A stretch of 64,000 nt of DNA from Spirochaetia bacterium 38H-sp (GTDB lineage: Bacteria > Spirochaetota > Spirochaetia > Winmispirales > Winmispiraceae), in assembly GCA_039023545.1 (NCBI GenBank), contig JBCHKQ010000002.1, positions 496,001 to 560,000 of the forward strand, in the 5' to 3' direction. Under the pieces are notes generated by a model that worked only from the letters and a program-made list of their open reading frames with translations, did not search any database and was not told where the DNA came from. Below, one piece after another: positions 2,158 through 60,392 of the stretch; position 1 is the stretch's first letter; every line of letters begins with the position of its first letter. A program made the translations under genes and the position numbers.

Positions 2158-2221
2158 ACCGAACGGCAGAGCTGCGGCTTTCCAAATAGAGAAAAAAGAC
2201 GCAGCTCTGCCTGCCTGCGGC
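2158..2221 (+). repeat. ACCGAAC two-hairpin repeat, copy 1
   Basis: ACCGAAC box, then a perfect 12-bp stem (2165-2176 with 2200-2211, 23-base loop), then the GCC-TGC-GGC mini-hairpin. It sits between the divergent pgsA and the next gene. Confidence 0.9.
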
Positions 2222-2317
2222 ATATAGAAAAAACGAATACTTTTGGCACTATCAAAAATCAAAATCCTGCATTTTTTACTATTTTCTATCAAAAAAAATA
2301 TAACACAATAGGTTTTA

Positions 2318-2346
2318 TTGACACCATTTTCTTTTAACTATACAGT
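2318..2346 (+). promoter_or_regulatory. Promoter of the second phosphatidyltransferase, leaderless type
   Basis: TTGACA, 17 bp, TACAGT. Only 8 bp separate the -10 box from the ATG at 2355 and there is no Shine-Dalgarno, so the transcript would begin at or just before the start codon. Confidence 0.6.
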
Positions 2347-2354
2347 AAAAAATC

Positions 2355-3152
2355 ATGGAAAAAGAAAAATACACCCCCGTTGCACATATTTGTGGTACTG
2401 TTCTGCTTCTTGCAGCAATACAGTGGGGTTTTGTAGCTGCTCTTATATTGATTTATGATATCACAATAACAAAACCCCTCATGGTTTTCTTCATAAGTTC
2501 TGCAGCATATCACACAGCTATGGCAGCTTTTTTGCTGATACAAAGAAAAGACTTTTATAACATAGAACACAAGCGTTTTCTTCTAAGAATCAATATACCC
2601 AACTATCTTAGCCTGTTTAGACTGAGTTCCATGCCTACAGTAACGCTTCTTCTTGTTCTTGCATGGCAATATCCAATTGCTATTATAGTCCTTGTATTTA
2701 CAGCAATTGTTTTTTTGACAGATTTTCTTGACGGATATATTGCAAGAAAAACCAATCAGATTACAAGGATTGGCCGTTATCTTGACAGCATGAGCGACTA
2801 CGCCATCCTGATAGTAATCTCCATTGTCTTCTATAATTATCATCTCATACCCATGTGGTTCTTATGGGTGGTAATTGCAAGACTGTTTATACAAGGAATC
2901 GGAATGGGAGTTCTTCTCCTCATAAAAGGAAAAGTCAGAGTAGAAAGCTCATTTCTTGCCAAAACAAGCATTTTTTCTATAATGGTTGTATACGGTCTTC
3001 ACATACTAAGCTTTTTCTATACATTGGAAATTCTCAACACGTATATTCTTCCTATAGTAGACATTATAGCAAGCATTATCCTTGCAATCTCACTTGCAGA
3101 AAAGCTTGCAAAGCTCTGGCAGTATAGCAAGCTACCTCCAGAGGAAATCTGA
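2355..3152 (+). CDS. CDP-alcohol phosphatidyltransferase family membrane protein
   Basis: The 265-residue polytopic membrane protein carries the complete CDP-alcohol phosphotransferase motif (DGYIARKTN...GRYLDSMSD) in its centre. Two extra N-terminal membrane helices (about 10-55) are not found in short PgsA proteins. The family makes phospholipids from CDP-diacylglycerol. The acceptor alcohol cannot be read from the sequence, and phosphatidylglycerophosphate, phosphatidylinositol-phosphate or cardiolipin synthesis are all possible. It diverges from pgsA. The ATG lacks a Shine-Dalgarno and lies 8 bp from a good -10 box, so it may be translated from a leaderless message. Confidence 0.75.
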   Translation: MEKEKYTPVAHICGTVLLLAAIQWGFVAALILIYDITITKPLMVFFISSAAYHTAMAAFLLIQRKDFYNIEHKRFLLRINIPNYLSLFRLSSMPTVTLLLVLAWQYPIAIIVLVFTAIVFLTDFLDGYIARKTNQITRIGRYLDSMSDYAILIVISIVFYNYHLIPMWFLWVVIARLFIQGIGMGVLLLIKGKVRVESSFLAKTSIFSIMVVYGLHILSFFYTLEILNTYILPIVDIIASIILAISLAEKLAKLWQYSKLPPEEI

Positions 3153-3192
3153 TTTTTAACTACTGCTATTAATAGCGAATCATTTATTTCTT

Positions 3193-3239
3193 CCGCTGGT
3201 AGGCAGCACGGACCGCGCAGCGGGTCGTGCGTTCGGTAT
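3193..3239 (-). repeat. ACCGAAC two-hairpin repeat, copy 2
   Basis: On the minus strand: ATACCGAACG, an 11-bp stem with two mismatches (3206-3216 with 3220-3230, 3-base loop), then a tail with CTG...CAG in place of the usual GCC...GGC. It lies between two plus-strand genes, in the antisense direction. Confidence 0.8.
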
Positions 3240-3336
3240 TATTTGTTTTTACACGGTCTTAGTTGACTTTGTTGCATAAGTAGCCTGAGTGGTGTTTTTA
3301 TGTTATATTAAAAAAAATATATATGAGGGAGAGGTT

Positions 3337-4509
3337 ATGATTGATTTTTACTTTTGGAATTATACAAGGGTTGTTTTTGGGCTTGAGGCAGAGAAGGAGC
3401 TTGAGTCCCATCTGGAGCTGCTGGGAGATAAGGTGCTTTTGCACTATGGAGGCGGTTCTATCAAGCAGATAGGTCTCTACGATACCGTGATAAAGACTCT
3501 CAAAAAGGCCGGGGTGAGTTTTGTGGAGCTGGGCGGGGTTAAGCCCAACCCAAGACTGAGTTTGGTGTACGAGGGTATTGAGCTATGCCGTAAGGAAGGT
3601 GTGACGGGTATTCTTGCAGTAGGCGGCGGTAGTGTTATAGATTCGGCAAAGGCCATTGCAGCAGGTGTGCCTTATGATGGAGATGTGTGGGATTTCTATA
3701 CAACAGATAAAAATCCGGATAAAGCTCTTCCCATAGGGGTTATGCTTACACTCCCAGCTGCAGGCAGTGAGACAAGTACCGGCAGTGTAATAACCAAGGA
3801 GGAAGGTGAGCTCAAGCGAGACACGGGTTCTCCTATCTTGAGGCCCCAGTTTGCAATTCTCAATCCCAAGTGGACGCTCAGTCTTCCCTGGTATCAGACG
3901 GCATGCGGTATAAGCGATATGTTTGCCCATATAATGGAAAGGTATTTTACTACAGTAGAACATGTTGAGCTTACGGATAGAATGGCAGAGGGTGCAATGA
4001 AGACTATAATTCATCAGGCATACAGGCTCAAGGAGAATCCGGATAACCTGGATGCAAGAAGCGAGATTATGTGGGCTGGGACTGTTGCACACAATGATAT
4101 CTTGCATACAGGACGTATCGGCGACTGGGCAACTCATATGATAGAGCATGAGCTCAGCGGGATATACGATATAGCGCATGGTGCAGGACTCAGCATAGTA
4201 TTCCCCGCATGGCAAAAATACATGCTGGACAAGCATCCACAGAAAATTGCTCAATTTGCCCACAGGGTTTTTGATATAGACTATTATCAGGATGATATAA
4301 AAGAGACCGCTCGCATGGGCATAAAGCGTCTAGAAGAGTTCTACCGAGATATGGAGCTTCCCGTAAGGCTCAAGGATGCAGGCATAGGCACCGACAGAAT
4401 CCGGGAGATGGCAAAGAAGGCCACCAGAGATGATAAAATCAAGCTTGGAAACTTCCATAAGCTGGACAGCAAGGCAATAGAAGAGATACTGCATCTTGCA
4501 GCAGAATAA
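3337..4509 (+). CDS. Iron-containing alcohol dehydrogenase (BdhA/YqhD type)
   Basis: The 390-residue cytoplasmic enzyme interconverts aldehydes and alcohols with NAD(P)H, consistent with a fermentative end step. The N-terminal Rossmann-like part has the GGGSVID cofactor loop. The C-terminal part has the Fe/Zn ligand region (GISDMFAHIMERYF, HTGRIGDWATHMIEH, IAHGAGLS), which supplies one Asp and three His as in group III alcohol dehydrogenases. The ATG at 3337 has GAGGGAGAGG in front. The longer frame upstream adds residues with no family match. The nearest relatives by pattern are butanol dehydrogenases, but substrate range is not readable. A strong terminator follows. Confidence 0.9.
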   Translation: MIDFYFWNYTRVVFGLEAEKELESHLELLGDKVLLHYGGGSIKQIGLYDTVIKTLKKAGVSFVELGGVKPNPRLSLVYEGIELCRKEGVTGILAVGGGSVIDSAKAIAAGVPYDGDVWDFYTTDKNPDKALPIGVMLTLPAAGSETSTGSVITKEEGELKRDTGSPILRPQFAILNPKWTLSLPWYQTACGISDMFAHIMERYFTTVEHVELTDRMAEGAMKTIIHQAYRLKENPDNLDARSEIMWAGTVAHNDILHTGRIGDWATHMIEHELSGIYDIAHGAGLSIVFPAWQKYMLDKHPQKIAQFAHRVFDIDYYQDDIKETARMGIKRLEEFYRDMELPVRLKDAGIGTDRIREMAKKATRDDKIKLGNFHKLDSKAIEEILHLAAE

Positions 4510-4529
4510 AAGTCATGATAGAAAAAAAT

Positions 4530-4560
4530 AAGGGAGAGGATAGTCCTCTCCTTTATTTTT
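4530..4560 (+). terminator. Intrinsic terminator of the alcohol dehydrogenase gene
   Basis: GGAGAGGA-TAG-TCCTCTCC with A/T-extended flanks and a TTTATTTTT tract. It lies inside the upstream extension of the rlpA reading frame, which argues that rlpA really starts at 4587. Confidence 0.85.
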
Positions 4561-4586
4561 GCAAGTATAACCCGATTATAAGACAG

Positions 4587-5162
4587 ATGAAGCGAGTATT
4601 CCTTTTTTTTGCATTCATTACAGCAGCAAACATCGCAGCACTTGAGCTGCAGGGCTATGCCTCATGGTATGGCCCGGGATTTGCGGGAAAACTAACTGCT
4701 TCAGGGGAAGTATTTGACCCTCAGAAACTCACAGCTGCACACAGAGACCTGCCATTTGGTACAAAAATACGCGTAACAAACCTTTCCAATAACAGGACAG
4801 TAGTGGTCACAATCAACGACAGAGGACCTTTTGTAAAAAACCGCATAATCGACCTGTCAAAAAAAGCAGCAGAAGAACTGGACATGATAAAAACAGGCAC
4901 GGCACTTGTAAAGCTGGAAATCATCAGCATTCCCAAAGGGCAGGAAAGACCGGTAATCCTGCAGGCAGGTGCATTTAAAGACAAAAAAAATGCAGAACAA
5001 CTATGCAGCCTGCTAAAGAAACATAAAATAAGCGCAATAATAGAAGAAACCCATACAAATTATAAAGTAATAGTTTACACAAAGAGCTCTTTGGAGAAGG
5101 CAACAAGAGAAAAGCTTGCAAAACTGGGCATAAAGAATGTCTTTAAGCGAAATAAAAAATAA
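4587..5162 (+). CDS. rlpA: RlpA-like septal lytic transglycosylase with SPOR domain
   Basis: The protein of 191 residues is exported by a signal peptide (about 1-18). A double-psi beta-barrel RlpA domain follows (about 20-115), with the diagnostic YASWYGPGFAGKLTASGE and INDRGPFVKNRIIDLS. A C-terminal SPOR domain (about 120-190, VILQAGAFKDKKNAEQL) binds denuded septal glycan strands. RlpA proteins cleave or bind peptidoglycan stripped of peptides and help daughter-cell separation. The ATG at 4587 immediately precedes the signal peptide, and the longer frame would run through a terminator. The stop codon overlaps a repeat element. Confidence 0.88.
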   Translation: MKRVFLFFAFITAANIAALELQGYASWYGPGFAGKLTASGEVFDPQKLTAAHRDLPFGTKIRVTNLSNNRTVVVTINDRGPFVKNRIIDLSKKAAEELDMIKTGTALVKLEIISIPKGQERPVILQAGAFKDKKNAEQLCSLLKKHKISAIIEETHTNYKVIVYTKSSLEKATREKLAKLGIKNVFKRNKK

Positions 5163-5229
5163 TACCGAACGTCGGGGCCGCGCCAAATAAAAGCAAAGCA
5201 GGAAAGGTGCAGCCCCTCCTGCCTTCGGC
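5162..5229 (+). repeat. ACCGAAC two-hairpin repeat, copy 3
   Basis: ATACCGAACG overlaps the last base of the rlpA stop codon. An 11-position stem (5174-5184 with 5206-5216; one mismatch, one G-U) is followed by the GCC-TTC-GGC mini-hairpin. Confidence 0.9.
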
Positions 5230-5286
5230 GAGGTATTTTTCCATCCAGAACACTATTGCATTATATTTTTTATTATGTCAGATCCT

Positions 5287-5332
5287 GCCGGAGGCAGTGC
5301 GTGACGCTGCAACGTCATCGCACGTTCGGTAT
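5287..5332 (-). repeat. ACCGAAC two-hairpin repeat, copy 4
   Basis: Minus-strand copy just upstream of the response-regulator gene. Compact stem (5297-5307 with 5312-5323, one bulged base) and a GCC-TCC-GGC mini-hairpin. Copies 3 and 4 face each other across 57 bp. Confidence 0.88.
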
Positions 5333-5341
5333 AAAATTTGT

Positions 5342-5370
5342 TTGTAAAATTGGACAAAATATCTGATAAT
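5342..5370 (+). promoter_or_regulatory. Promoter of the response-regulator/kinase gene, leaderless type
   Basis: TTGTAA, 17 bp, GATAAT, with 6 bp to the ATG at 5377. There is no Shine-Dalgarno. An overlapping TTGGAC-17-TATTAT (5350-5378) would instead place the RNA start near the internal ATG at 5389. Confidence 0.5.
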
Positions 5371-5376
5371 TATATT

Positions 5377-7173
5377 ATGGCAAAAATTATGCTTGTGGAG
5401 GATGAGGCACTCATCGCTCTGGATATAAAAAACAGTCTGGAGTCGGCCGGACACGAGGTTCTCTTGGCGGCCAATGCAAAAAAAGCGCTGGAATGTACAG
5501 AAAATAACCAAGATATAGAGCTTTTTATTCTGGATATAGGGCTTGATGGGAAACTGAGCGGGATAGAGCTTGCAGAAAAAATACGCAAGACAAAAAAAGA
5601 GAGCATAATATTTTTTTCCAACTTTTCGGACAACGATACACTCAACAGGCTTGCAAAGATAGAAAACAGTATATTCCTTCCCAAGCTTATATCTAGAGAG
5701 ATTCTCATAAGCAATATTTCTCTTTTGTTACATACCACAAAGAAAAAAAGAAAAAGGACAACTATAAATCCCATAAGCACGGCTTTTGCAGAGCTTTTTG
5801 AGACTATGGAGGAGGGAGTAAGTCTTAATCAGCTTGTGCCAGATATAAAAACTCCCACAGGCTATAAGATTATCAGGGTAAATCAGGCTTTTTGCAATAT
5901 CATAGGAAAGAAAAAAGAAGAACTGGAAGGCAAGATGGCAAATGAGGTTTTGCCGTCACTACCGGAGCATTTTGTAGAAAAGATGCTGGAGGTTGTAAGA
6001 GAAAGAAAATCTCAGAGGTTTAATCTGCATCTGGAGGATATCGATAGGCATCTTTCCGTATCACTCATTCCGTGGAACATGGGCTTCGGTGCCATATGGA
6101 GAGACATAACAGAAGAAATAAAGCTGACAGAGGCTCTTAGAAAAAGTGAGAGCCGCTACAGGGTGCTAGTGGAGAATCAGACTGATATGGTGGTTAAGGT
6201 GGATACAGAGGGACGTTTTTTGTATGTTAGTCCTTCTTATTGTGCTGTTTTTGGCAAAAGTGAGGAAGAACTTCTTGGCCGTTCTTTTGTCCCGCTGGTA
6301 CATCCAGACGACAGAGAATCGACTCTCAAAGCAATAGAGAATGTATACAGACCACCTTATACTGCCTACATGGAACAGCGTGCCATTACCAAGGACGGTT
6401 ATAGATGGATAGCGTGGAGCGACAGCGCTATTATGGATGAAGAAGGAAACATAAAGGCCATAATAGGAGTAGGAAGAGATATCCACGATAAAAAAACAGC
6501 GGAGATAGAACTTAATAAAACAAGAAAGAAGCTAGAGGAAACTCTAGAAGAAAAAGAAATTTTGCTTAAAGAGCTCATCCACAGGGTAAAAAATACTCTA
6601 TCTTTGATTCTGAGTTTTATACATCTGGAAAAAGCTTCCTGGGATAACAAGAGATTTTTGAGCAGGATGGATTCTCTTGAAGCAAGGATAAAGTCTTTAT
6701 CAGAACTCTATGGGCTTTTGCACTCTACGGGGAACATAAAAAAGATAGATGTATCTTTTTATATAGAAAAACTTGTGGAAACAATCATAAAAGCCTATGG
6801 GATGTATCATAAGATAGAACTTGTTACAAAGCTTGACAGTATAAAGATGCCAGCAAAGGAGGCAACAAGTATAGGACTAATAGTGACAGAAACAGTAACC
6901 AATGCCTGCAAATATGCTTTTGAAGGAAGAGAAAGTGGCAGGCTATCCATACAACTAAATAAGAAAGACGACCTAATATATATAAATATAGAAGACAACG
7001 GGATAGGCATACAGCAAAAAGAAGGGGAAAAAGGAGAAGATTTTGACCAATCAACACATGGTGGACTAGGATTGCAGCTTATTCCCCTTCTTGTACAGCA
7101 GCTTGGCGGGGACATAGAGACATCAACAGACAACACCGGTACTCGCATATGCATATCCATACCTGGGAAGTAA
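5377..7173 (+). CDS. Response regulator-PAS-PAS-HisKA_2 sensor histidine kinase
   Basis: The 598-residue cytoplasmic hybrid signalling protein begins with a receiver domain (about 1-120; acidic pocket E8/D9, phospho-acceptor Asp53 in FILDIG). Two PAS domains follow (about 145-260 and 265-385). Next are a HisKA_2-type dimerisation domain with His402 in LIHRVKNTL and a HATPase domain (N box TNACKYAFEG, G boxes DNGIG and GGLGLQL). The receiver-first order suggests that another kinase phosphorylates it and so modulates its own kinase. It has no membrane segment, so the input is internal. No partner regulator is adjacent. The start matches the receiver N terminus and lacks a Shine-Dalgarno. Confidence 0.85.
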   Translation: MAKIMLVEDEALIALDIKNSLESAGHEVLLAANAKKALECTENNQDIELFILDIGLDGKLSGIELAEKIRKTKKESIIFFSNFSDNDTLNRLAKIENSIFLPKLISREILISNISLLLHTTKKKRKRTTINPISTAFAELFETMEEGVSLNQLVPDIKTPTGYKIIRVNQAFCNIIGKKKEELEGKMANEVLPSLPEHFVEKMLEVVRERKSQRFNLHLEDIDRHLSVSLIPWNMGFGAIWRDITEEIKLTEALRKSESRYRVLVENQTDMVVKVDTEGRFLYVSPSYCAVFGKSEEELLGRSFVPLVHPDDRESTLKAIENVYRPPYTAYMEQRAITKDGYRWIAWSDSAIMDEEGNIKAIIGVGRDIHDKKTAEIELNKTRKKLEETLEEKEILLKELIHRVKNTLSLILSFIHLEKASWDNKRFLSRMDSLEARIKSLSELYGLLHSTGNIKKIDVSFYIEKLVETIIKAYGMYHKIELVTKLDSIKMPAKEATSIGLIVTETVTNACKYAFEGRESGRLSIQLNKKDDLIYINIEDNGIGIQQKEGEKGEDFDQSTHGGLGLQLIPLLVQQLGGDIETSTDNTGTRICISIPGK

Positions 7174-7224
7174 TAAAATATATTTTATATTACCTGTCTG
7201 TTTTCTTAGCTCTTTTGTGGCGGT

Positions 7225-7253
7225 TTGATTTTTATTTTTTTTTAAGCTAGAAT
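7225..7253 (+). promoter_or_regulatory. Promoter of dapL
   Basis: TTGATT, 17 bp, TAGAAT, about 28 bp upstream of the dapL start. The gene also has a normal AGGAG ribosome site. Confidence 0.6.
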
Positions 7254-7281
7254 CCGCTATAAAAACAACAGGAGTTAAGAT

Positions 7282-8505: not shown

Positions 8506-8509
8506 TTTT

Positions 8510-9232: not shown

Positions 9233-9272
9233 ATACCGAAAGGGCTTAACGCATAGCGTTAAGCCCTTTTTA
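9233..9272 (+). terminator. Terminator carrying an ATACCGAA box (repeat-family copy 5)
   Basis: A 14-bp perfect stem (9239-9252 with 9256-9269, 3-base loop) and a T tract end the dapL-plsC unit. It is preceded by ATACCGAA, the 5' box of the repeat family, but lacks the GCC-NNN-GGC tail. Confidence 0.85.
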
Positions 9273-9343
9273 TGTTTGTCATATTAGTGTTTTAAACAGG
9301 TGTGCGTATTGTTTCTTATCCGTTATTTGCGCTTATATCCTTA

Positions 9344-9423
9344 GCCGCAGGCAGGAGGGAAGCGCGCCTTGCTTTCTTTTTTGCTTTATTGGCGCGCTTA
9401 CGACGTTCGGTATAAAAATAGTT
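9344..9423 (-). repeat. ACCGAAC two-hairpin repeat, copy 6
   Basis: Minus-strand copy upstream of the GT-C gene. Box ATACCGAACGTCG, 9-bp perfect stem (9360-9368 with 9391-9399), GCC-TGC-GGC mini-hairpin. It belongs to the GTCG subgroup with copies 3, 11, 13, 16 and 23. Confidence 0.9.
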
Positions 9424-13512: not shown

Positions 13513-14448
13513 ATGGTATCCATCATAATACCCGTATTTAACGAAGAAGAAGTTCTCAACGAACTCTATAAAAGAATCACAACAGTAATGGACAGTACAA
13601 AAGAAGACTATGAGCTTGTATTCATAGATGACGGAAGCAGTGACAACACATACTCCATGTTAAAAGAATTGCATAAAAAAGACAGAAGATGCAAAATTAT
13701 TCACTTTTCACGCAACTTTGGACACCAGATAGCAATAACAGCAGGCATGGACTACTGCAAAGGAGACGCTATAGTCATAATAGACGCAGACCTGCAAGAT
13801 CCACCAGAACTAATACCAGAAATGCTGGAAAAATGGAAACAAGGAGCACAGATAGTACATGCAAAAAGAAAAAAAAGAAAAGGAGAAAGCATCTTTAAAA
13901 AAGCAACAGCCGCCATATTTTACAGAACGCTCAAAGCACTCACAAACGTAGAAATACCAGTTGACGTAGGGGACTTTAGACTCATGGATAAAAAAGTAGT
14001 CCAGTCATTAAGAAGCATGAGAGAAAGAAACCGCTTTGTGCGAGGACTGGTAAGCTGGACAGGCTACAAACAAGCAGAAGTAACATACATACGCGACCCG
14101 CGCTTTGCAGGCACAACCAAATATCCGCTCAAAAAAATGATACGCTTTGCACTCAACGGCATAACATCCTTCTCCGACAAACCCCTCAAGATAGCAAGCC
14201 TTCTTGGCTTTCTGCTCTCAACAGCAGGCTTTATCTACATGCTCTACGTACTTTACCAGAAATTATTTACAACACAAGTCGTACAAGGATGGACAACAAT
14301 AGTTGTTTTGATACTTGTATTCAACGGATTCACCCTCCTCTCACTTGGAATATTAGGAGAATACGTAGGCAGAATATACGAAGAAATAAAACAGCGCCCT
14401 CTATACATAATAGAAGAAAGCCTTGGCTTAGAGGACTCAAAAGAATGA
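13513..14448 (+). CDS. Polyprenyl-phosphate glycosyltransferase, GT2 (DPM1/GtrB-like)
   Basis: The 311-residue enzyme charges polyprenyl phosphate with a sugar from a nucleotide donor on the cytoplasmic face, making the donor that GT-C enzymes use. The N-terminal GT-A fold has IIIPVFNEEEVL, the DDGSSDNT donor site and the metal-binding DADLQDPPE. Two C-terminal membrane helices (about 230-290) are typical of GtrB. GGAGGAAATAAC precedes the ATG at 13513. It follows the giant GT-C gene by 20 bp and overlaps the gtrA gene by 4 bases, so donor synthesis, presumed flipping and transfer are encoded together. Confidence 0.9.
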   Translation: MVSIIIPVFNEEEVLNELYKRITTVMDSTKEDYELVFIDDGSSDNTYSMLKELHKKDRRCKIIHFSRNFGHQIAITAGMDYCKGDAIVIIDADLQDPPELIPEMLEKWKQGAQIVHAKRKKRKGESIFKKATAAIFYRTLKALTNVEIPVDVGDFRLMDKKVVQSLRSMRERNRFVRGLVSWTGYKQAEVTYIRDPRFAGTTKYPLKKMIRFALNGITSFSDKPLKIASLLGFLLSTAGFIYMLYVLYQKLFTTQVVQGWTTIVVLILVFNGFTLLSLGILGEYVGRIYEEIKQRPLYIIEESLGLEDSKE

Positions 14449-14867
14449 AAAAACCCCACATCCTGCAGTTTTTAAAATACAACGCAGTAGGCATCCTTAA
14501 CACAACAATAGACATAACAACCTTTGCCATACTAACAGCAATGGGCCTTGCAGCAGAAATATCGCAGATAATATCCTACACACTTGGCATGGCAAACAGC
14601 TACCTGCTCAACCGATACTGGACATTTGCAAAAAAAGAAACCCCCACACACAAAGAGGCCTTGAGATTCATAATCGTTAATCTCACAGGACTTGCCATAT
14701 CTATAGCAACAATAAGCCTCACAAAAATAACACTAGGCAGCACAGAAACCGGGAACACAATGATAGCAAAATGGCCCGTATACACAATAGCAGGAAAAGC
14801 ACTTGCAATGGCTCTAAGCATAGGCATAACATTTCCACTCAACAAAAACTGGGTATTTAAAAAATAA
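14445..14867 (+). CDS. GtrA-family membrane protein (putative lipid-linked sugar flippase)
   Basis: The 140-residue protein has four predicted membrane helices and the GtrA pattern (FLKYNAVGILNTTIDITTF at the start, NSYLLNRYWTF in the middle, FPLNKNWVFKK at the end). GtrA proteins are thought to flip polyprenyl-phosphate sugars across the membrane. The ATGA overlap with the preceding GT2 gene fixes the start at 14445 and implies translational coupling. It is the last gene of the three-gene glycosylation operon, and a repeat element begins three bases after its stop. Confidence 0.88.
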   Translation: MKKPHILQFLKYNAVGILNTTIDITTFAILTAMGLAAEISQIISYTLGMANSYLLNRYWTFAKKETPTHKEALRFIIVNLTGLAISIATISLTKITLGSTETGNTMIAKWPVYTIAGKALAMALSIGITFPLNKNWVFKK

Positions 14868-14870
14868 AAA

Positions 14871-14938
14871 ACCGAACGGTCTTACCACTGCCACGCAAGC
14901 AAAATAAACCGCAGGCGGCGGTAAGACCTGCCTGCGGC
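14871..14938 (+). repeat. ACCGAAC two-hairpin repeat, copy 7
   Basis: Between the convergent gtrA and mannanase genes. ACCGAAC box, 9-bp perfect stem (14878-14886 with 14920-14928) that can extend imperfectly, then a GCC-TGC-GGC mini-hairpin. Confidence 0.9.
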
Positions 14939-14957
14939 AAACATAAAGTAAACAAAA

Positions 14958-18235: not shown

Positions 18236-18275
18236 AAAAAAAGGCAGTGGCTGTTAGGCCACTGCCGTTCGGTAT
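18236..18275 (-). terminator. nifU terminator carrying an ATACCGAAC box (repeat-family copy 8)
   Basis: On the minus strand: ATACCGAAC, then an 8-bp perfect stem (18243-18250 with 18259-18266), then a run of seven T. It ends the nifS-nifU unit. It has the repeat family's 5' box but a T tract instead of the mini-hairpin. Confidence 0.88.
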
Positions 18276-20184: not shown

Positions 20185-20254
20185 ATACCGAACGGAGTCC
20201 CTGCACCATACAGAGAAAAACAAGCAGCACGGTGCAGGGACTCCTGCCTGCGGC
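20185..20254 (+). repeat. ACCGAAC two-hairpin repeat, copy 9
   Basis: The best preserved copy: ATACCGAACG, a perfect 14-bp stem (20194-20207 with 20231-20244, 23-base loop), then GCC-TGC-GGC. It lies between divergent nifS and the MFS gene. Confidence 0.95.
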
Positions 20255-20268
20255 GCAAAATAAAATCA

Positions 20269-24136: not shown

Positions 24137-24237
24137 GCGTAAAAAATAATATGGTATCTTAACATCATCAACTCTTTTTTTTACAAAAACACAGAAGGCA
24201 TATCTGTAAAAACGAGCATAATCTTTTCCCTGTATTC

Positions 24238-24309
24238 GCCACAGGCAGGCAGAGAGGCGTATATCTCACCTGTTTTTCTTAATAAGGGCGCATTTCTGCC
24301 GTTAGGTAT
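24238..24309 (-). repeat. ACCGAAC repeat, degenerate copy 10
   Basis: Minus-strand relic. The box reads ATACCTAACG, the long stem is decayed, and the GCC-TGT-GGC mini-hairpin survives. It lies downstream of the xylanase gene. Confidence 0.65.
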
Positions 24310-25492: not shown

Positions 25493-25564
25493 ATACCGAA
25501 CGTCGTTTCCGCGCCATATTTGGCAGAACAAAGCAAAGAAGGCGCGGAAACTCCTGCCTGCGGC
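25493..25564 (+). repeat. ACCGAAC two-hairpin repeat, copy 11
   Basis: ATACCGAACGTCG, 11-bp perfect stem (25505-25515 with 25541-25551), GCC-TGC-GGC mini-hairpin. Between divergent xylanase and PHP genes. Confidence 0.93.
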
Positions 25565-25685
25565 GCACATGCAAAAGAACAAACAAGATAATTACAAACA
25601 ATTCTCACCAATCAGTCCATACTTATTGACTTGTAAACATAATAGTAAGAAGATAAAAGCAGAACTTTTTGTAAAAGGAGTTATG

Positions 25686-26516: not shown

Positions 26517-26833
26517 TGTTAAGCATACAAGCCATAAATCCATCTTAAAATAACTGTTATATATAGAAGAACTCTGTCTGTACAACACTGTTTTATACAA
26601 AACTCACATCACACAATGTACAGAATCAGCTCATGTTTGTATGCGCCCGCAGGCAGGCAGATCCGTGCCACCTCTGCATGTTATGACATATAATGAAGAC
26701 AGCCTCGTTTCTATCCGTATACCTTAGCTGGCACGGTTCTGCCGTTCGGTATAAAAATATAATATAACTAGGATTCTGGCTGGACAAAAAATAGGTATGG
26801 CAATATCATACTCAAAAAAAATACGGGAGTTTT
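26517..26833. other. 317-bp gene-free stretch
   Basis: It contains repeat copy 12 (26645-26752) and a GGGAG ribosome site for the next gene at its end. In the first 128 bases I see no gene, terminator or RNA structure that I can support. Confidence 0.7.
26645..26752 (-). repeat. ACCGAAC two-hairpin repeat, copy 12, long loop
   Basis: Minus strand: ATACCGAACG, 15-position stem with one mismatch (26656-26670 with 26729-26743), 58-base loop, then GCC-TGCG-GGC with a 4-base loop. The longest copy that carries no insertion of another copy. Confidence 0.88.
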
Positions 26834-27947: not shown

Positions 27948-28014
27948 ATACCGAACGTCGTCCCTGCACCAACCGGAGCAAAAAAAGACAAGCGCAGGGA
28001 CTCCTGCCTACGGC
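27948..28014 (+). repeat. ACCGAAC two-hairpin repeat, copy 13
   Basis: Four bases after the preceding stop codon, between convergent genes. GTCG subgroup; 8-bp perfect stem (27960-27967 with 27994-28001) and GCC-TAC-GGC mini-hairpin. Confidence 0.92.
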
Positions 28015-28093
28015 AAATACAAAGCAAAACAGAAAACCTATCTTACACAAAAGCTCCACAAATACAAAAAGTATTGATATAGAATTTCACACA

Positions 28094-32602: not shown

Positions 32603-32676
32603 TTGCTAAAAGCAGGCATAACTGTGCAATTTCTTCTTTTTTTGCTTTACCATGGCACAGTTATGCCGTTCGGTAT
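32603..32676 (-). repeat. ACCGAAC two-hairpin repeat, copy 15
   Basis: Minus strand: ATACCGAACG and a perfect 13-bp stem (32615-32627 with 32655-32667, 27-base loop). The tail keeps TGCCTGC, but its GGC half is lost. Between divergent gph and phosphatase genes. Confidence 0.85.
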
Positions 32677-41658: not shown

Positions 41659-41775
41659 ACTCTCTCTCTTTTTAACATTAATTTTCTTAATACTATGTCT
41701 TTTTAATCACAAAAATCTAGCACTAGTGTATCGGGATTTGCCACTTTCTCTTATATGCCGTATTTTTTATTTTTT

Positions 41776-41889
41776 GCCGCAGGCAGGAGGAGCTGCGTTT
41801 TATGCCGAACGCACAGCCCGCTACGCGGTCTGTGCTGCCTCCAGCCGGGGGAAAATCAAGATAGAGGAGCGCAGCGACGACATTCGGTC
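41776..41889 (-). repeat. ACCGAAC two-hairpin repeat, copy 16, interrupted by copy 17
   Basis: Minus strand: box ACCGAATG with GTCG, short GCTGCG/CGCAGC stem (41792-41797 with 41870-41875), then GCC-TGC-GGC. Its loop holds another copy in the opposite direction. The box overlaps the end of the DUF188 gene. Confidence 0.85.
41802..41848 (+). repeat. ACCGAAC repeat, copy 17, nested in the loop of copy 16
   Basis: Plus strand: ATGCCGAACG, an 11-bp stem with one mismatch (41811-41821 with 41825-41835) and a CTG...CAG tail, closely like copy 2. It is wholly inside the loop of copy 16. Confidence 0.85.
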
Positions 41890-43654: not shown

Positions 43655-43703
43655 ATACCGAACGGCTGCCCGCAAGTTTTAATGCGGGCAGCCTGCCTAT
43701 GGC
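43655..43703 (+). repeat. ACCGAAC two-hairpin repeat, copy 18
   Basis: Compact copy between divergent manA and pfp: ATACCGAACG, perfect 11-bp stem (43664-43674 with 43683-43693, 8-base loop), GCC-TAT-GGC. Confidence 0.94.
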
Positions 43704-43740
43704 AAAATAAAAAACAAAGAAGAATAACAGGCATACCGAC

Positions 43741-45466: not shown

Positions 45467-45475
45467 AAAACAAGC

Positions 45476-45505
45476 AAAAAAGGCTGCCATGAGGCAGCCT
45501 TTTTT
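45476..45505. terminator. Terminator after pfp
   Basis: AAAAAAGGCTGCC-ATGA-GGCAGCCTTTTTT is a 13-bp perfect stem with A and T runs, strong on the plus strand and potentially active on both. Confidence 0.93.
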
Positions 45506-45594
45506 ACTGTTGTAACACAAGATGTGCTGTATGGTAAATCCATAAATAGAGCCTAAAAATAGAGTTACAATGACAATAATGCCTTTTCTTACGA

Positions 45595-45636
45595 CCAGAG
45601 GCAGAGCAGAGCACTTGTGCTCTGCTCGTTCGGTAT
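45595..45636 (-). repeat. ACCGAAC two-hairpin repeat, copy 19
   Basis: Minus strand: ATACCGAACG, perfect 11-bp stem (45604-45614 with 45617-45627), then GCC-TCT-GGT, in which the last pair becomes a G-T wobble. Downstream of the GH3 gene. Confidence 0.9.
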
Positions 45637-48018: not shown

Positions 48019-48089
48019 ATATCGAACGGGCTTGCCGCAGGTTGTTTTGAATAAATAAGAGCACCCCTGCGGCAAACCCTGCCTTAGGC
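48019..48089 (+). repeat. ACCGAAC two-hairpin repeat, copy 20
   Basis: Box ATATCGAACG, 14-position stem with one mismatch (48028-48041 with 48066-48079), GCC-TTA-GGC mini-hairpin. Faces copy 21 in the same divergent intergenic region. Confidence 0.9.
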
Positions 48090-48112
48090 AAATATGCAGA
48101 AAAACAGACTGT

Positions 48113-48162
48113 GCTACCGCCAGGAGGCAGAGCAGACCGCCTGCGGTCTGCTCGTTCGGTAT
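48113..48162 (-). repeat. ACCGAAC two-hairpin repeat, copy 21
   Basis: Minus strand: ATACCGAACG, perfect 11-bp stem (48130-48140 with 48143-48153), GCC-TCCT-GGC with a 4-base loop. Confidence 0.92.
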
Positions 48163-53596: not shown

Positions 53597-53605
53597 AAAA
53601 TAATA

Positions 53606-53644
53606 ATACCGAACGCCCACCCCTCTCGGGGTGGGCTTTTTTTT
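53606..53644 (+). terminator. PFOR terminator carrying an ATACCGAACG box (repeat-family copy 22)
   Basis: ATACCGAACG, then GCCCACCCC-TCTC-GGGGTGGGC (53615-53623 with 53628-53636), then eight T. A strong intrinsic terminator with the repeat family's 5' box and no mini-hairpin. Confidence 0.93.
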
Positions 53645-53676
53645 GTAGCCATGATAAAATAAGCACAGGAGGAAAC

Positions 53677-54824: not shown

Positions 54825-54829
54825 CATGT

Positions 54830-54853
54830 AGCCCCATAAGGGGCTTTTTTTTT
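54830..54853 (+). terminator. Terminator of the PilZ gene
   Basis: AGCCCC-ATAA-GGGGCT followed by nine T, six bases after the stop codon. Confidence 0.93.
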
Positions 54854-54909
54854 GCCCCAAACTGCTTTACAAAAAATATATTTTATGCAAAATACAAAAA
54901 GAGGAAGTC

Positions 54910-55560
54910 ATGAAATATAAAATATCAGCATCCATACTCAACGCCAATTTTCTGAGACTTGGACAGGAAATATCGGAAATAAAAGACTACATTGATGAGA
55001 TACATCTTGACATAATGGACGGACACTATGTTGATAACATATCCTTTGGCCCGGATATAATATCTCTTATAAGGAAAGAATTTTCAGACATTACATTGGA
55101 TACCCATCTTATGATATGTAATCCGGATAAGTACTGGCATACATTCATAGAAGCGGGAGCGGATATCCTGGTATTTCATAAGGAAGCAACACAGAAAGCA
55201 TACCATATTCTGGAAAAAATAAAAAAAAGCGGAAAACTAGCAGGGATATCCCTTAATCCAGCTACGGACATAAACCAGATAGAGCCACTTGTAGATGTGA
55301 TAGACAGGGTTCTTATCATGACAGTAGAACCCGGTTTTGGAGGGCAGAGCTTTATAAAACCCATGTTAAAAAAGATAGAAAAAGCAAGAAAGATACTGGG
55401 AGACAATATTGATATAGAAGTAGACGGAGGAATCAACAATAATACTGTAAAAGATGCTCAGAAAGCAGGAGCCAACACATTCGTTGTCGGCTCCCATATC
55501 TTTAAATCTTCAGATAAAATAGCAGAAATAGAAAAACTAAGAGAGATTTTAGAGCACTAA
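54910..55560 (+). CDS. rpe: Ribulose-phosphate 3-epimerase
   Basis: The TIM-barrel enzyme of 216 residues interconverts ribulose-5-phosphate and xylulose-5-phosphate. Motifs: ISASILNANFLRLGQEI with substrate Ser, IHLDIMDGHYVDNISFGP (metal His and Asp), THLMI, MTVEPGFGGQSF, and EVDGGINNNT with the last catalytic Asp. AGAGGAAG precedes the ATG. Its stop codon directly abuts the stop of the convergent rpiA, so the two pentose-phosphate enzymes meet tail to tail with no spacer or terminator. It supports use of xylose from xylan. Confidence 0.95.
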   Translation: MKYKISASILNANFLRLGQEISEIKDYIDEIHLDIMDGHYVDNISFGPDIISLIRKEFSDITLDTHLMICNPDKYWHTFIEAGADILVFHKEATQKAYHILEKIKKSGKLAGISLNPATDINQIEPLVDVIDRVLIMTVEPGFGGQSFIKPMLKKIEKARKILGDNIDIEVDGGINNNTVKDAQKAGANTFVVGSHIFKSSDKIAEIEKLREILEH

Positions 55561-56265
55561 TCAATCAGAAAGATGTTCTATTGCACCATCACTCTTTGCA
55601 ACAAGAACAATAGGCCGTACCAAAGAAAAAAAGCCATTCTCGTACACTCCCGGTATGGAGTTTATAAGTCTCTCCATATCAGGACCATCAACAGGAGTCT
55701 TAAAAAGAACATCAAAGATGATATTCCCATTGTCCGTTATAACTGGACCACATTTTCCCGTACCGACCCTTATTGTAAAATCAGCTCTCATTGATTTTAA
55801 CCGTCTTGCAACTACAGCTCTAGCAACAGGAACAACCTCTACAGGAACAGGAAAACCTGTGCCTATGGAAGGAACAAGCTTGCTCTCATCAACTACTACA
55901 ACAAATTTATCCGCATTATAAGCAACAAGCTTTTCCATAAAAAGTGCAGCCCCTCCCCCCTTAACAAGAGAAAGGCAAGAAGAAACCTCATCCGCACCAT
56001 CAATTGCAACATCCACATGCCCGTTTATATCATTGCTGTTTAATGAGCGCAGAGGGATTCCCAGTCTCTCCGCCTCTATCTCTGTCTCTAAGCTTGTAGT
56101 AACGGCAAGAATATTCTTTAGTTTGCCTGACTTAAGATGCTCTGCAACTCGTCTTATAGCCCATATAGCAGTAGAACCAGTACCCAGACCTATTTTTTGT
56201 CCGCTTTTTACAAATTTATCCACTGCTTCATAGGCAACAATTTTTTTTAACTCATCCTTGGTCAT
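55561..56265 (-). CDS. rpiA: Ribose-5-phosphate isomerase A
   Basis: The 234-residue enzyme interconverts ribose-5-phosphate and ribulose-5-phosphate. Family signature segments are GLGTGSTAIWAIRRV, DVAIDGADEVSSCLSLVKGGGAAL (catalytic Asp, Glu, Lys), VVDESKLV and the C-terminal DNGNIIFDV. The start at MTKDELKK has GGAGAAGAG before it; the frame continues 20 residues upstream without family match. Convergent with rpe with zero intergenic bases. Confidence 0.95.
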   Translation of the reverse strand: MTKDELKKIVAYEAVDKFVKSGQKIGLGTGSTAIWAIRRVAEHLKSGKLKNILAVTTSLETEIEAERLGIPLRSLNSNDINGHVDVAIDGADEVSSCLSLVKGGGAALFMEKLVAYNADKFVVVVDESKLVPSIGTGFPVPVEVVPVARAVVARRLKSMRADFTIRVGTGKCGPVITDNGNIIFDVLFKTPVDGPDMERLINSIPGVYENGFFSLVRPIVLVAKSDGAIEHLSD

Positions 56266-56334
56266 GCTCTTCTCCGTAGAAATAAACTGTGGGGATACAA
56301 TAACACAAAAAAATACAATATACAATATTTATGG

Positions 56335-58005
56335 TTAATCATAATAAGAAACTACTTTATTTCTTCCCTTATGCTTTGCCATATAAAGAGCCTTATCTGC
56401 GGCCTTTATAAGAGAATCAAGAGAGTTTATGTTTCCCGACAACGAAGCAACACCTATGCTTACTGTAAAATCAACACTCATTTTGTCTATATTTATAGAA
56501 AGAAGTTCTATTTTTTCTCTTATTCTGTTGGCAATGGCAAGGGCATCATCCTGGTCAGTATAAGGCAATAAGATGGCAAACTCCTCTCCTCCTATACGAG
56601 CAGCTATATCCGTTTTCCTAAGGAGAGAAGACAATGCAGATGAAAATCCGACCAGAGCCGTATCTCCTACAGCATGGCCATAGTTATCATTGATATTTTT
56701 AAAATGATCCAAATCAAGAATCATAAAACTGACAGGCGCACCCAATGCAATACATCTGTCAATCACAGGCCCTGCAGTATTAAAAAAATATCTTCTATTA
56801 TAAAGGCCTGTTAAATCATCAACTATGCTTTGAAGACGAAAATTATTAAAATGATCAACAATGCCTAGCGTAATAACAAATACCAAGAGTATTATACCTA
56901 TCTCCTTGGTATGTAGTGTAAGCACATTACTTGGCATAAGGCCAAATCCTCTCAGGGCAAAAACAGCTATACCAACTATAAAAAATACAAACCCCGTGAG
57001 TGCAAATCCCCCTGCCCTATCCCCAGCAGCTATGGAAGAAACCATAGAAATAAGATTGGGAACAACAAACAGAACACCGAGAATGGCAAATAGAATAAGT
57101 GATAAAGAAACAGGCAAAAAAAGCAAAGAGACAATCGTAAAAAATCCCCATCCGTAAACAACATAATACAGATACCTTAGCATCAGTCTGAGCCTGCCCG
57201 GAGAAAGGAAATCATACATAAAAGAAGAAAAAGCCATGAGGCCTATGGTACCTGAAATTATATAAAAATAATATTTCCAGGAAGTAGTCTCGGGAGACAG
57301 AAGTATAAATAAAAAACCATCCTGAATGCTGTTAAAAACAAAGGCACAGATAATAAAAATATTAAAAAAGACAAAATGCCTTAACTTATAGTTGGCATAA
57401 AAAATAATAATTATTACAAATAAAAGGAGCAGAAGCCCCATATACATACCATAGACCAAATTTATCCTTGCGGAATAATCAAAAAGTATATTTTCTCTCC
57501 ATAGATATAAAGGAAATCTGAGAGTACCTCTGGTTTTTATCTTGAGATAAACTGTGTAATGCCCTGTAGGCAGTACCCCAAGCGAAAAAACAGGATTTCT
57601 ATACTGATATGTACGGTTTCTAAAAGGCTTTCTATCACTAATATAATCAAAATCTATAACTTTATCTTTGGAGATAAGATACATTGATACAAAATCAAGC
57701 AAAGGATAATCCACTTCCAAAAGCCATTTTCTATCGAAAGATGCTTTGGTATCTATATCAATCTTTAACCAAATATAAGAATCATTAAACCCATATGAGC
57801 TTTTATCCGCATAGGTAAAATCAATATATCTGTTTTTTTCACCATCTATTATATCATAAATAGAAAGGTCCTTATCACCCGCAAAGTACATTTGAATGCT
57901 ATTATAAGGTATGCCAATCTTCTCTTGGGAAGACAAGACAATGGGCTCTGCAAACAGAGTATAGCAGAAAATAGTGCTTATAAGAAATATTAATTTTTTA
58001 TGCAT
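56335..58005 (-). CDS. 7TMR-DISM diguanylate cyclase (GGDEF)
   Basis: The 556-residue membrane protein has a signal peptide (about 1-18), then a periplasmic beta-sandwich 7TMR-DISM extracellular domain (about 25-165, YIDFTYADKSSYGFNDSYIWLKI), which often binds carbohydrate-like ligands. Seven membrane helices (about 170-370) and a C-terminal GGDEF domain (about 395-556) follow. The active site reads RIGGEEFAIL, and an RxxD inhibitory site (RKTD) lies five residues before it, so the enzyme should make c-di-GMP with product inhibition. The start at 58005 begins the signal peptide; 58011 is an alternative. The PilZ protein nearby is a possible receiver. Confidence 0.9.
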   Translation of the reverse strand: MHKKLIFLISTIFCYTLFAEPIVLSSQEKIGIPYNSIQMYFAGDKDLSIYDIIDGEKNRYIDFTYADKSSYGFNDSYIWLKIDIDTKASFDRKWLLEVDYPLLDFVSMYLISKDKVIDFDYISDRKPFRNRTYQYRNPVFSLGVLPTGHYTVYLKIKTRGTLRFPLYLWRENILFDYSARINLVYGMYMGLLLLLFVIIIIFYANYKLRHFVFFNIFIICAFVFNSIQDGFLFILLSPETTSWKYYFYIISGTIGLMAFSSFMYDFLSPGRLRLMLRYLYYVVYGWGFFTIVSLLFLPVSLSLILFAILGVLFVVPNLISMVSSIAAGDRAGGFALTGFVFFIVGIAVFALRGFGLMPSNVLTLHTKEIGIILLVFVITLGIVDHFNNFRLQSIVDDLTGLYNRRYFFNTAGPVIDRCIALGAPVSFMILDLDHFKNINDNYGHAVGDTALVGFSSALSSLLRKTDIAARIGGEEFAILLPYTDQDDALAIANRIREKIELLSINIDKMSVDFTVSIGVASLSGNINSLDSLIKAADKALYMAKHKGRNKVVSYYD

Positions 58006-58156
58006 AGCCATAATCCCAAGTAGATTGTTTTTCTGTAAAACTATAACCCATATTATTGCAAAACACAATAAAATCTTATAAGTGATAAGTTAATTTGCTT
58101 GCACAGCATAGATATTTTCTCTACTATTTATATTTTTATGAGTGAGGTTTGTTTAT

Positions 58157-58933
58157 ATGTCTGTCTCTTTGATACTTGATTATTCTGGCACTGTATGTAC
58201 AGAAGCCCCGAGACTTGCAATCCCGGAAAATCTGGACAAGGCCTTACAATCCTCTGGGCTAAAGACAATGGGCATGGATGTTTTTGCATACTGGAATAAG
58301 GTCGTATTGCCATACTGGGATATTGCAAAAAAAGGAGAAATAAGTTTGCTGGAATGTATAGAAAGAGCTGCAATCCACAGAATATCAGGCGGATACACCA
58401 TTTCTGCAAAAAAGTTTGTAAAGATTTTTATGTCTATGCTGTATCCGCATATGCTATGGGAAAAAGCAATCCGGTCTTTTATAGAAAACTCAATACGCAT
58501 TGTAATAGCTACAGAGCACTATAAAGAAGCAGCAGAAGCTATAGAAAGCTATCTGATAGAACGCAACATCATATCCGCCATATATCCGCATAAAGCTCCA
58601 TGTACTATAGTATGCTCGTCAAACATAGGAGAGGCAAAGGACTCTGGAGTATTCTGGGATGCAGTAAAGGATGCTGCAGAAGGAGCAGAACGCCTTATAT
58701 ATGTTGATGATTTTAACCTCAATGAAGCAGAATTTTTATCAGGAAAGGATATAGATAAGAAAACACATCTGGAAAAGATGTTAAAAAACAGCAGCCGGTT
58801 TCTTACCATAATGGGAGCAAAAGAGATAGATATTTTCCCTTTTGTTTTGGAAAATATTTTTGCAGATAAAGGAGAGCTGGAAAAAGAACTTGCGACAAAG
58901 ATAAGGCAAATAGAAAATGCAGTATATGTGTGA
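58157..58933 (+). CDS. HAD-like protein with altered motif I
   Basis: The 258-residue protein shows a HAD-like N terminus, SLILDYSGTVC, in which the second Asp of DxDGT is Ser. A helical cap region follows, then RIVIATEHYKEAAEA in the motif II position and RLIYVDDFNLNEAEF in the motif IV position. Loss of the second Asp is seen in haloacid dehalogenases and some non-phosphatase members, so simple phosphatase activity is doubtful. ATG at 58157 with GAGG nine bases before; a GTG at 58142 is possible. No functional context is apparent. Confidence 0.6.
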   Translation: MSVSLILDYSGTVCTEAPRLAIPENLDKALQSSGLKTMGMDVFAYWNKVVLPYWDIAKKGEISLLECIERAAIHRISGGYTISAKKFVKIFMSMLYPHMLWEKAIRSFIENSIRIVIATEHYKEAAEAIESYLIERNIISAIYPHKAPCTIVCSSNIGEAKDSGVFWDAVKDAAEGAERLIYVDDFNLNEAEFLSGKDIDKKTHLEKMLKNSSRFLTIMGAKEIDIFPFVLENIFADKGELEKELATKIRQIENAVYV

Positions 58934-58993
58934 TATCGTGATAAGCTCAAATTAATGCTTGTATTTCCGATACTTGTATAAAGGTGTGGTTGT

Positions 58994-60310
58994 ATGAATT
59001 TAAACAAGGTTGTTTTTAGAGAAGAAGACAGGTTTTTATATGTATGGCGACTCATCCTGTCGCTTGTTTCTTTGTATTATGCTTTTAGGTTACCTCTTGT
59101 ACTTGTGAGAAAGAGTTCTTATCCTGCTTTTTTTATTGTCGACATTATGGCTGCCTTTGTGTTTCTTGTAGACATATTTGTTCAGTCAAGAACTGCAATA
59201 AAAAGAGAAGGTAAGTTCATAACAGATATAAAGTCTCTTTCCAAAGATTATTTTTCTTCTTCCAGGTTTTTTATTGATCTTATTGCAGCTCTTCCTCTTG
59301 ATGTTTTTCTTATATGGACGACTCATCTTTCTTTTTTTGCTCCTCTTGCCCTGCTTAGACTTCTTAAGCTTTTGCGGCTCAAGGATAATCTGGAGTATAT
59401 GGCTACTGTCAAGTTTAATCCTGCTCTTTTTAGGCTTTTGCTTATGGTCTTGTGGATTATTCTTGCTGCTCATTCTATTGCATGTGGTTGGCTGGCTATA
59501 AGCGGCATAGATTCTTCCGATTCTTTTTCCTATCAATATCTTAGGGCTATTTACTGGACTATAACTACTCTTACAACTATTGGTTATGGCGATATTACTC
59601 CGTCTTCTCCTGCTCTTATCATGTATACAATTCTAATAGAATTGATTGGTGCTGCCATGTATGGTTTGATAATAGGTAGTATTGCAAACCTTATTTCCAA
59701 GATGGATACTGCCAAGATTATGCATAGGGAGAAGGTGGAAAAAATCAATGCTTTTCTTTCTTACAAGCATATTTCGCCTGAGCTCCAGAAAAAAATAAGG
59801 GACTACTTTGATTATCTTTGGGATACAAGGCGAGGGCATGCGGAGGAGTCTGTTCTTACAGAGATTCCTCATTCTCTTAAGCTCGCTGTTGCACTTGAGA
59901 TTCATAAGGATGTTATCCAGAAGGTACCTCTTTTTAAAGATGCAAATGATGATTTTATCAGGGATATCATCCTGCATCTGCAATCTTATATTGTAAGTCC
60001 AGGGGATTATATCATCCGTGCTGGGGAGATTGGTCTTGATATGTTCTTTATCAACCGGGGTTCTGTTGAGGTTGTGTCTGCGGATGAGTCCGTAAGGTAT
60101 GCTGTTTTATCGGAGGGACAGTTTTTCGGGGAGATGGCTCTTGTTTTGCAGGCTCCGCGTACTGCTACGGTAAGGTCTCTGGAATATTGCGACTTGTATA
60201 GGCTCGATAAGGGTACTTTTGATAATATTCTTATAAGGTATCCGGATGTCGCTTCACAGATAGAAATGCTTGCACAGCAAAGAAAGGCTGAGATAGATAA
60301 GAAAAAATAG
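58994..60310 (+). CDS. Cyclic nucleotide-gated potassium channel
   Basis: The 438-residue protein has six membrane helices in its first 235 residues, with an S4-like arginine/lysine-containing segment (LLRLLKLLRLKDNL). The K+ selectivity filter TTIGYGDI lies near residue 196. A C-linker and a cyclic nucleotide-binding domain (about 310-430) follow, with the phosphate cassette GEMALVLQAPRTATV. It resembles MloK1 and HCN/CNG channels and would gate K+ flow by cAMP or cGMP. The cassette Thr after the Arg favours either nucleotide. AAGGTG is a weak ribosome site. No cyclase is adjacent. Confidence 0.92.
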   Translation: MNLNKVVFREEDRFLYVWRLILSLVSLYYAFRLPLVLVRKSSYPAFFIVDIMAAFVFLVDIFVQSRTAIKREGKFITDIKSLSKDYFSSSRFFIDLIAALPLDVFLIWTTHLSFFAPLALLRLLKLLRLKDNLEYMATVKFNPALFRLLLMVLWIILAAHSIACGWLAISGIDSSDSFSYQYLRAIYWTITTLTTIGYGDITPSSPALIMYTILIELIGAAMYGLIIGSIANLISKMDTAKIMHREKVEKINAFLSYKHISPELQKKIRDYFDYLWDTRRGHAEESVLTEIPHSLKLAVALEIHKDVIQKVPLFKDANDDFIRDIILHLQSYIVSPGDYIIRAGEIGLDMFFINRGSVEVVSADESVRYAVLSEGQFFGEMALVLQAPRTATVRSLEYCDLYRLDKGTFDNILIRYPDVASQIEMLAQQRKAEIDKKK

Positions 60311-60321
60311 GCTCCATATTT

Positions 60322-60392
60322 GCCGCGCAGGCAGGAGGAAGAGCGCCTCCATGCCTGCTTTGCTCTGTATGGCGCGCTTCCGACGTTCGGTT
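60322..60392 (-). repeat. ACCGAAC two-hairpin repeat, copy 23
   Basis: Minus strand between convergent genes: ACCGAACGTCG, 9-position stem with one mismatch (60339-60347 with 60371-60379), GCC-TGCGC-GGC with a 5-base loop. GTCG subgroup. Confidence 0.9.

Follow-up and report, generated by a model that had tools for sequence, protein, structure and literature searches.

Here we describe a family of small non-coding repeats in Spirochaetia bacterium 38H-sp. Each unit consists of a 7-nt tag or box, ACCGAAC (GTTCGGT on the opposite strand), a hairpin of free sequence, and a mini-hairpin or a T-run. The family was studied in a window of 64,000 nucleotides (positions 496,001 to 560,000 of JBCHKQ010000002.1) and in the assembly from which it comes (2.35 Mb, 25 contigs, 99.87% complete; the window lies on contig 2 and has 40% GC). 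The elements are a genuine, directly observed family. We consider them to be probably a lineage-specific family of the kind of repetitive extragenic palindromes (REPs) and bacterial interspersed mosaic elements (BIMEs), with a new tag, in which some copies are also terminators. Contigs 1 and 2, which make up two thirds of the genome (1.565 Mb), were analysed in detail, and the genes on them were called by a simple procedure.

The window contains 14 copies of the pattern ATACCGAAC, whereas 0.22 are expected and no shuffle equalled the count. ACCGAAC itself occurs 18 times, against 2.3 expected from shuffles. Genome-wide, there are 339 exact copies of ATACCGAAC and 35 of the reversed pattern, which served as a control. 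When a window element was called from a box with at most one mismatch and a hairpin score of at least 7, 21 elements were obtained, and the exact box at 5330 (-), which has an imperfect stem, brings the total to 22 (12 plus, 10 minus). An earlier reading of the letters (hereafter the sequence-only reading) had given 23, with 12 plus and 11 minus, so its count agrees to within one. A covariance model, R1, was built from 13 copies of the short-loop class S described below. It gave 23 matches in the window at E ≤ 1, of which 19 have E values under 0.01 (the match at 41775-41803 (-) is doubtful), and 78 matches at E ≤ 0.01 in 400 kb of contig 1. The sequence-only reading had proposed a model of 23 copies for this purpose; the enrichment was strong with 13. 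Furthermore, on contigs 1 and 2, 323 of 355 ACCGAAC boxes are intergenic, whereas intergenic DNA is only about 9% of the total, and a hairpin with a score of at least 7 starts at 87% of boxes versus 17% of random intergenic positions. As had been claimed, all boxes in the window are intergenic, two of them (5162 and 31113) abut stop codons, and tandem, divergent and convergent spacers are all occupied. The copies are not confined to gene 3′ ends in sense orientation, since other orientations are also occupied. Neither of the outcomes that the sequence-only reading had named as refuting it was thus obtained.

There are three main classes. In class S, the box is followed by a short-loop hairpin and the mini-hairpin TGCC-TNC-GGCA; in class L, the hairpin before the same mini-hairpin has a loop that is rich in A and about 25 nt long. 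The L1 subclass has GTC at the stem start and TCC at the stem end, and in the L2 subclass pairing begins at the box. In class T, a terminator-like form, the box and hairpin are followed by a T-run. Thus, the two-hairpin anatomy of the sequence-only reading holds for most copies, but a T-run replaces the mini-hairpin in 68 of 323 (about one fifth), and the loop-based classes and convergent composites had been overlooked. Neighbouring elements less than 450 bp apart, which we define as pairs or composites, are convergent in 63 of 63 cases; 197 copies are single. Most pairs measure 135-160 bp and a second group measures about 82 bp; the commonest combination is L with S. The composite order is box, long-loop hairpin, TGCCTNCGGCA, spacer, TGCCGNAGGCA, short-loop hairpin and inverted box. 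Its ends are terminal inverted repeats (ACCGAAC...GTTCGGT), as in miniature inverted-repeat transposable elements; most copies, however, are half units.

When copies were compared with each other by blast, similarity as a rule ran from about position -3 of the box (-2 to -5) to the end of the mini-hairpin, and in other best pairs it spanned the composite to the opposite box. One pair shares 42 identical nucleotides that are confined within the element limits, and composite halves are shuffled into new combinations. Because the similarity ends at the box and the mini-hairpin, the copies constitute a dispersed family of homologous, bounded and modular units. Two composites of contig 1 (797473-797622 and 805757-805904) lie 8 kb apart with 82% identity over 165 bp, and one of them adjoins a duplicated gene (804249-805718 and 820042-821496), possibly a local duplication. 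On contig 2 near 661519, a short tandem repeat of TGCTTTT units adjoins an element.

The stems are free in sequence and constrained in pairing. In an ungapped alignment of 13 S copies, 11 of 12 stem pairs are altered on both sides, no one-sided change is found within standard pairs, and 94.7% of cells are paired versus 76% in shuffles. These values bear out the earlier observation of variable stems with complementary arms. Five of five measures lay above all 500 shuffles and the slid controls. In all classes, the outer 8 or so stem pairs are retained far above independence. Among the closest S copies, single stem changes outnumber double changes (16:8) and the relation reverses with distance, as compensatory evolution predicts. 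To control for ascertainment by the exact box, a separate search was started from the hairpin and mini-hairpin with the box ignored. An exact box was present in 154 of 195 copies and a box with one mismatch in 32. Because 186 of 195 copies thus have no or one mismatch, the tag is retained even where the stems have diverged.

The elements of the window are as follows (window coordinates).
2158..2222, plus: L2 element; box 2158-2164, long-loop hairpin, mini-hairpin TGCCTGCGGCA; 33.6 bits
3194..3237, minus: S element; box 3231-3237, short-loop hairpin, imperfect mini-hairpin; 23.1 bits
5164..5230, plus: L1 element (AACGTC...TCC); left half of composite 5164-5330
5286..5330, minus: S element; right half of composite 5164-5330 (167 bp); 50.2 bits, the best in the window
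9235..9272, plus: T element with variant box ACCGAAA; hairpin, then T-run
9343..9411, minus: L1 element; convergent partner of the element at 9235
14871..14939, plus: L2 element; begins 3 nt past the stop of 14445-14867
18236..18273, minus: T element; box, 9-bp hairpin, T7; intrinsic-terminator form
20187..20255, plus: L2 element in a divergent spacer; perfect 14-bp stem
24237..24307, minus: L2 element with variant box ACCTAAC
25495..25565, plus: L1 element in a divergent spacer
26645..26750, minus: L2 element; unusually long loop of 52 nt
27950..28015, plus: L1 element in a convergent spacer, past a stop codon
31114..31182, plus: L2 element; abuts a stop codon directly
32604..32674, minus: L2 element in a divergent spacer; perfect 13-bp stem, weak mini-hairpin
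41804..41846, plus: S element with variant box GCCGAAC
43657..43704, plus: S element; 39.7 bits
45593..45634, minus: S element
48021..48090, plus: L2 element with variant box ATCGAAC; left half of composite 48021-48160
48118..48160, minus: S element; right half of composite 48021-48160
53608..53644, plus: T element; box, 9-bp hairpin, T8
60321..60391, minus: L1 element

A scan of the window with Rfam gave no match above the gathering score, and the best sub-threshold match (E = 0.23) lies outside the elements. A sub-threshold match to STnc50 at 45471-45556 (-), with 31 of the 55 bits needed, lies beside the S element at 45593-45634 and is probably due to chance.

The mismatches within the stems are not symmetric between the strands. 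On the box strand, isolated stem mismatches are A·C in 63 cases and G·T in 17 (p = 2e-7; 55:12 when counted per element). Because a wobble pair on one strand is A·C on the other, the complement of the box strand is either the protected folding strand or the strand with mutating cytosines. In terminators of the same genome without a box, the ratio on the transcribed strand is reversed (49 G·T to 28 A·C). The computed stability favours the complement in four of four classes, with DNA and RNA parameters alike. In 38 of 38 L1 copies, there is a TC/TC internal loop, which is a tandem GA mismatch on the complement, and tandem GA mismatches are favourable. The mini-hairpin loop is TNC, with N free, in 102 of 148 copies; on the complement, this is GNA closed by C-G, and DNA mini-hairpins of this type are extraordinarily stable (PMC4686876). 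A UNCG RNA tetraloop was considered as the cause of TNC and rejected, because the register leaves one pair and a C·C mismatch. Thus, the strand that ends in GTTCGGT appears to be singled out as the folded strand. Many copies past stop codons have the box strand in the mRNA, and selection on the complement therefore fits single-stranded DNA better than RNA. From these features, we infer that the folded complement acts as single-stranded DNA; both the strand and the type of molecule are derived from the sequence.

The elements are placed close to gene ends. When a stop codon lies on the box side, the median distance to it is 8-12 nt in classes S and T and 8-19 nt in class L; when a start lies there, the distance is about 60-90 nt, and boxes avoid promoters. 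Among spacers of 60-120 bp, 64% of the convergent and none of the divergent ones are occupied; at 200-350 bp, all spacer types are occupied about equally. In convergent spacers, a U-tract terminator follows the stop in 1 of 42 genes with an L or S copy versus 35 of 98 genes without an element. This depletion makes it probable that some copies terminate transcripts or protect them, as has been proposed for REPs. A secondary, host-serving role as terminator or mRNA 3′ end is thus likely for copies about 10 nt after stops. The form of an intrinsic terminator (sense orientation, gene 3′ end, U-tract) is seen in most T copies only; L and S copies lack the U-tract and occur in all orientations. The elements show no preference for a replication strand.

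An enzyme that could disperse the units was sought. The sequence-only reading had predicted a Y1/HUH transposase, like the REP-associated tyrosine transposases (RAYTs), flanked by the hairpins. This prediction failed: Y1/RAYT (PF01797) had no match in the 99.87% complete genome, whereas the same search was positive in 5 of 14 controls. DDE_Tnp_1, IS110, TnpB and reverse transcriptase (RVT_1) also had no match in the genome; further transposase families were not searched. Only two full-length tyrosine recombinases are present, and context and sequence mark them as housekeeping XerC and XerD. In the hunt for an autonomous copy, multi-copy genes on contigs 1 and 2 were limited to two pairs, and none of the genes lying alone between neighbouring elements is transposase-like. 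The genome thus appears to be poor in mobile-element enzymes of the families searched and, on contigs 1 and 2, in multi-copy genes. A short tyrosine-recombinase fragment with an internal stop on contig 7 (36939-37046) is possibly a phage or island remnant.

Relatives of the family were also sought. Winmispira, whose former name is Spirochaeta thermophila, and Rarispira pelagica, a thermophile, belong to the order Winmispirales; the host is probably a Rarispira. In the genome set, the host is alone in its genus and the order adds just two genomes from one other genus. In 400 kb of this sister genus (62% GC in the genome sampled), the covariance model gave one marginal match. It gave two single chance-level matches in 97 Spirochaetia genomes, and the L/S pattern gave three in 296 other Spirochaetia genomes. 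The strict L pattern found nothing comparable among 84,980 species genomes; there were three matches in Ruegeria, and the one inspected looks coding. Viral contigs gave 24 single matches on unrelated contigs; judged by eye, their arms do not pair, and we therefore attribute these matches to chance.

If the elements are REP/BIME-like repeats, as we favour, the following mechanism may be considered. Unlike units (L and S) often lie head to head in a composite of about 150 bp, and the strand ending in GTTCGGT would fold as single-stranded DNA. A protein would bind the hairpin and tag on the folded strand and disperse the units, as TnpA_REP does for REPs; it would not be a Y1 transposase of the resident genome and may, among other options, have diverged or been lost. 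Copies about 10 nt past stops would also serve the host, T copies as U-tract terminators and L and S copies at terminator positions. A bolder proposal is that the elements are sites throughout the genome that a protein other than Y1/HUH reads as folded single-stranded DNA by the hairpin shape and the 3′ GTTCGGT, with any stem, for spread or for a chromosomal function. We consider this proposal unlikely. If true, such a reader would explain why tag and pairing are retained in nearly every copy.

Several results weigh against the REP/BIME-like reading. In addition to the missing enzymes (Y1/RAYT, the other families searched, and any full-length tyrosine recombinase beyond XerC and XerD), no target-site duplication is evident by eye in the composite flanks beyond the TA/AT that the inverted ends impose. 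T copies have no evident homology outside the tag and hairpin, and the GNA preference is absent from the main-hairpin loops. The mismatch asymmetry could stem from strand-biased mutation instead of selection. The tag is better conserved in old, diverged copies than expected for decaying mobile repeats, which asks for a continuing function. The genus has a single genome and the family relatives lack the element, which leaves no close relative in which an empty site or a recent insertion would show.

The same placement beside stop codons can be explained if the elements are regulatory RNA signals of the host, that is, a lineage-specific terminator or mRNA 3′-end element whose upstream tag is bound by an RNA-binding factor and which spread by local duplication and convergence instead of transposition. 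The 68 copies with hairpin and T-run, the median of 8-12 nt past stop codons, an occupancy that is highest for convergent spacers and the depletion of U-tract terminators beside L and S copies (1/42 versus 35/98) all fit this explanation. However, a large number of copies are found in divergent spacers or run antisense to tandem genes, the sense mRNA does not carry the folded strand, and L and S copies have no U-tract. Moreover, the box is missing from most intrinsic terminators in the genome (93 of 140), and the copies are bounded homologues. We therefore regard RNA signals as a possible but minority explanation.

The elements may also be only relics of an old inverted-repeat element, with palindromes that perfected themselves by template switching (quasi-palindrome correction) and pairing that is not selected. 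The stems diverge freely and yet are perfect, and intermediates are few in the S alignment, as would be expected in this case. Template switching, however, does not keep an unpaired 7-nt tag, the TNC loop and the TC/TC mismatch, and the 16:8 ratio of single to double changes in the closest S copies is that of stepwise compensation. This explanation is improbable. Least probable is a word that is recognised throughout the genome, for example a DNA-uptake sequence or a replication-polar signal. It would account for a short word at high copy number in one lineage, but DNA-uptake words are located mostly in genes, whereas 323 of 355 boxes are intergenic, and the box is tied to a hairpin. A replication-polar signal was rejected because of the lack of replichore strand preference.

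The REP/BIME-like reading can be compared with known systems. REPs are tagged hairpins that form inverted dimers near stop codons, and RAYTs, which bind one of the folded strands, are believed to mobilise them (PMC3733652, PMC8266576); REPs lie less than 20 nt after stops and are rare near promoters (PMC3733652). The earlier statement that no described family has this pattern was thus too strong, because REPs, BIMEs and CGTC-tagged REPs share the tag, hairpin, dimers and position (PMC3733652). Its reading of a mobile REP-like element recognised as folded single-stranded DNA survives as a structure-recognised REP-like family, without the Y1 enzyme. The IS200/IS605/RAYT logic appears not to fit, as the recognised strand there has its guide box 5′ of the hairpin and the box here is at the 3′ side of the apparent folded strand.

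Like GTAG-tagged REPs, BIMEs and REP doublets (REPINs), the present elements are high-copy intergenic tagged hairpins that occur as singletons and as inverted dimers of unlike units (y-z1 and y-z2 in Escherichia coli) and lie just past stop codons (PMC3733652, PMC8266576, PMC3116915). Strand-specific recognition of folded single-stranded DNA, a feature of REPs, is suggested here by the mismatch and loop data (PMC3733652, PMC8266576, PMC3116915). The arrangement is that of REPs and REPINs (63 convergent pairs, 197 singles, 323/355 intergenic). In contrast to GTAG REPs, the family has the 7-nt tag ACCGAAC, free stem sequence and a second, conserved mini-hairpin, the folded strand appears to bear the tag 3′, and the genome is without a Y1 transposase. 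No GTAG was found 5′ of the hairpin, and no GTAG-type word is among the top over-represented intergenic words.

Intrinsic terminators resemble the T copies in having a hairpin and T-run beside stop codons, but they lack the invariant upstream tag and the mismatch bias toward the opposite strand, and the T-run is missing in most copies here. Integron attC sites likewise have a conserved 7-nt outer box (RYYYAAC/GTTRRRY), which ACCGAAC resembles, a variable structured interior and folded single-stranded DNA, which is probable here. The present elements differ by G instead of Y at box position 4, by four separate hairpins instead of one and by not forming an array. Identity with attC was rejected because of position 4 and because the genome has no integron integrase, only XerC and XerD.

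CGTC-tagged REPs (for example, dRS3 of Neisseria, RPE-4 and RPE-6 of Rickettsia) are also tagged hairpins with inverted dimers and no known dedicated transposase. They have been reported in Spirochaetes and Thermotogae, some dimers have two stem-loops at the spacer ends, and the L1 hairpin begins with CGTC. Their stems, however, are 8-9 bp and open with A/T pairs, with loops of 4-5 nt and mostly a CCA tail, whereas here the first pairs are G/C, stems and loops are longer and the invariant tag reaches outside CGTC. CGTC occurs mainly in L1 (38 copies) and in a few S copies. Because the tag and stem tests of both REP types and the RAYT test failed, we place the family beside REPs and CGTC-tagged REPs, not within them. 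New here are the convergent composites, the bounded dispersed family, the folding signal of the complement strand, the placement near stops, the enzyme-poor host and the absence from the sampled Spirochaetia. Tagged-hairpin repeats are thereby extended, with a new tag, to a lineage that is probably the order Winmispirales. With structure fixed and stem sequence free in hundreds of copies, the family is an unusually clean natural experiment, in which the folded strand can be deduced from the letters. Moreover, how such repeats spread without a RAYT, a question shared with CGTC-tagged REPs, is now posed by a genome without any of the mobile-element enzyme families searched.

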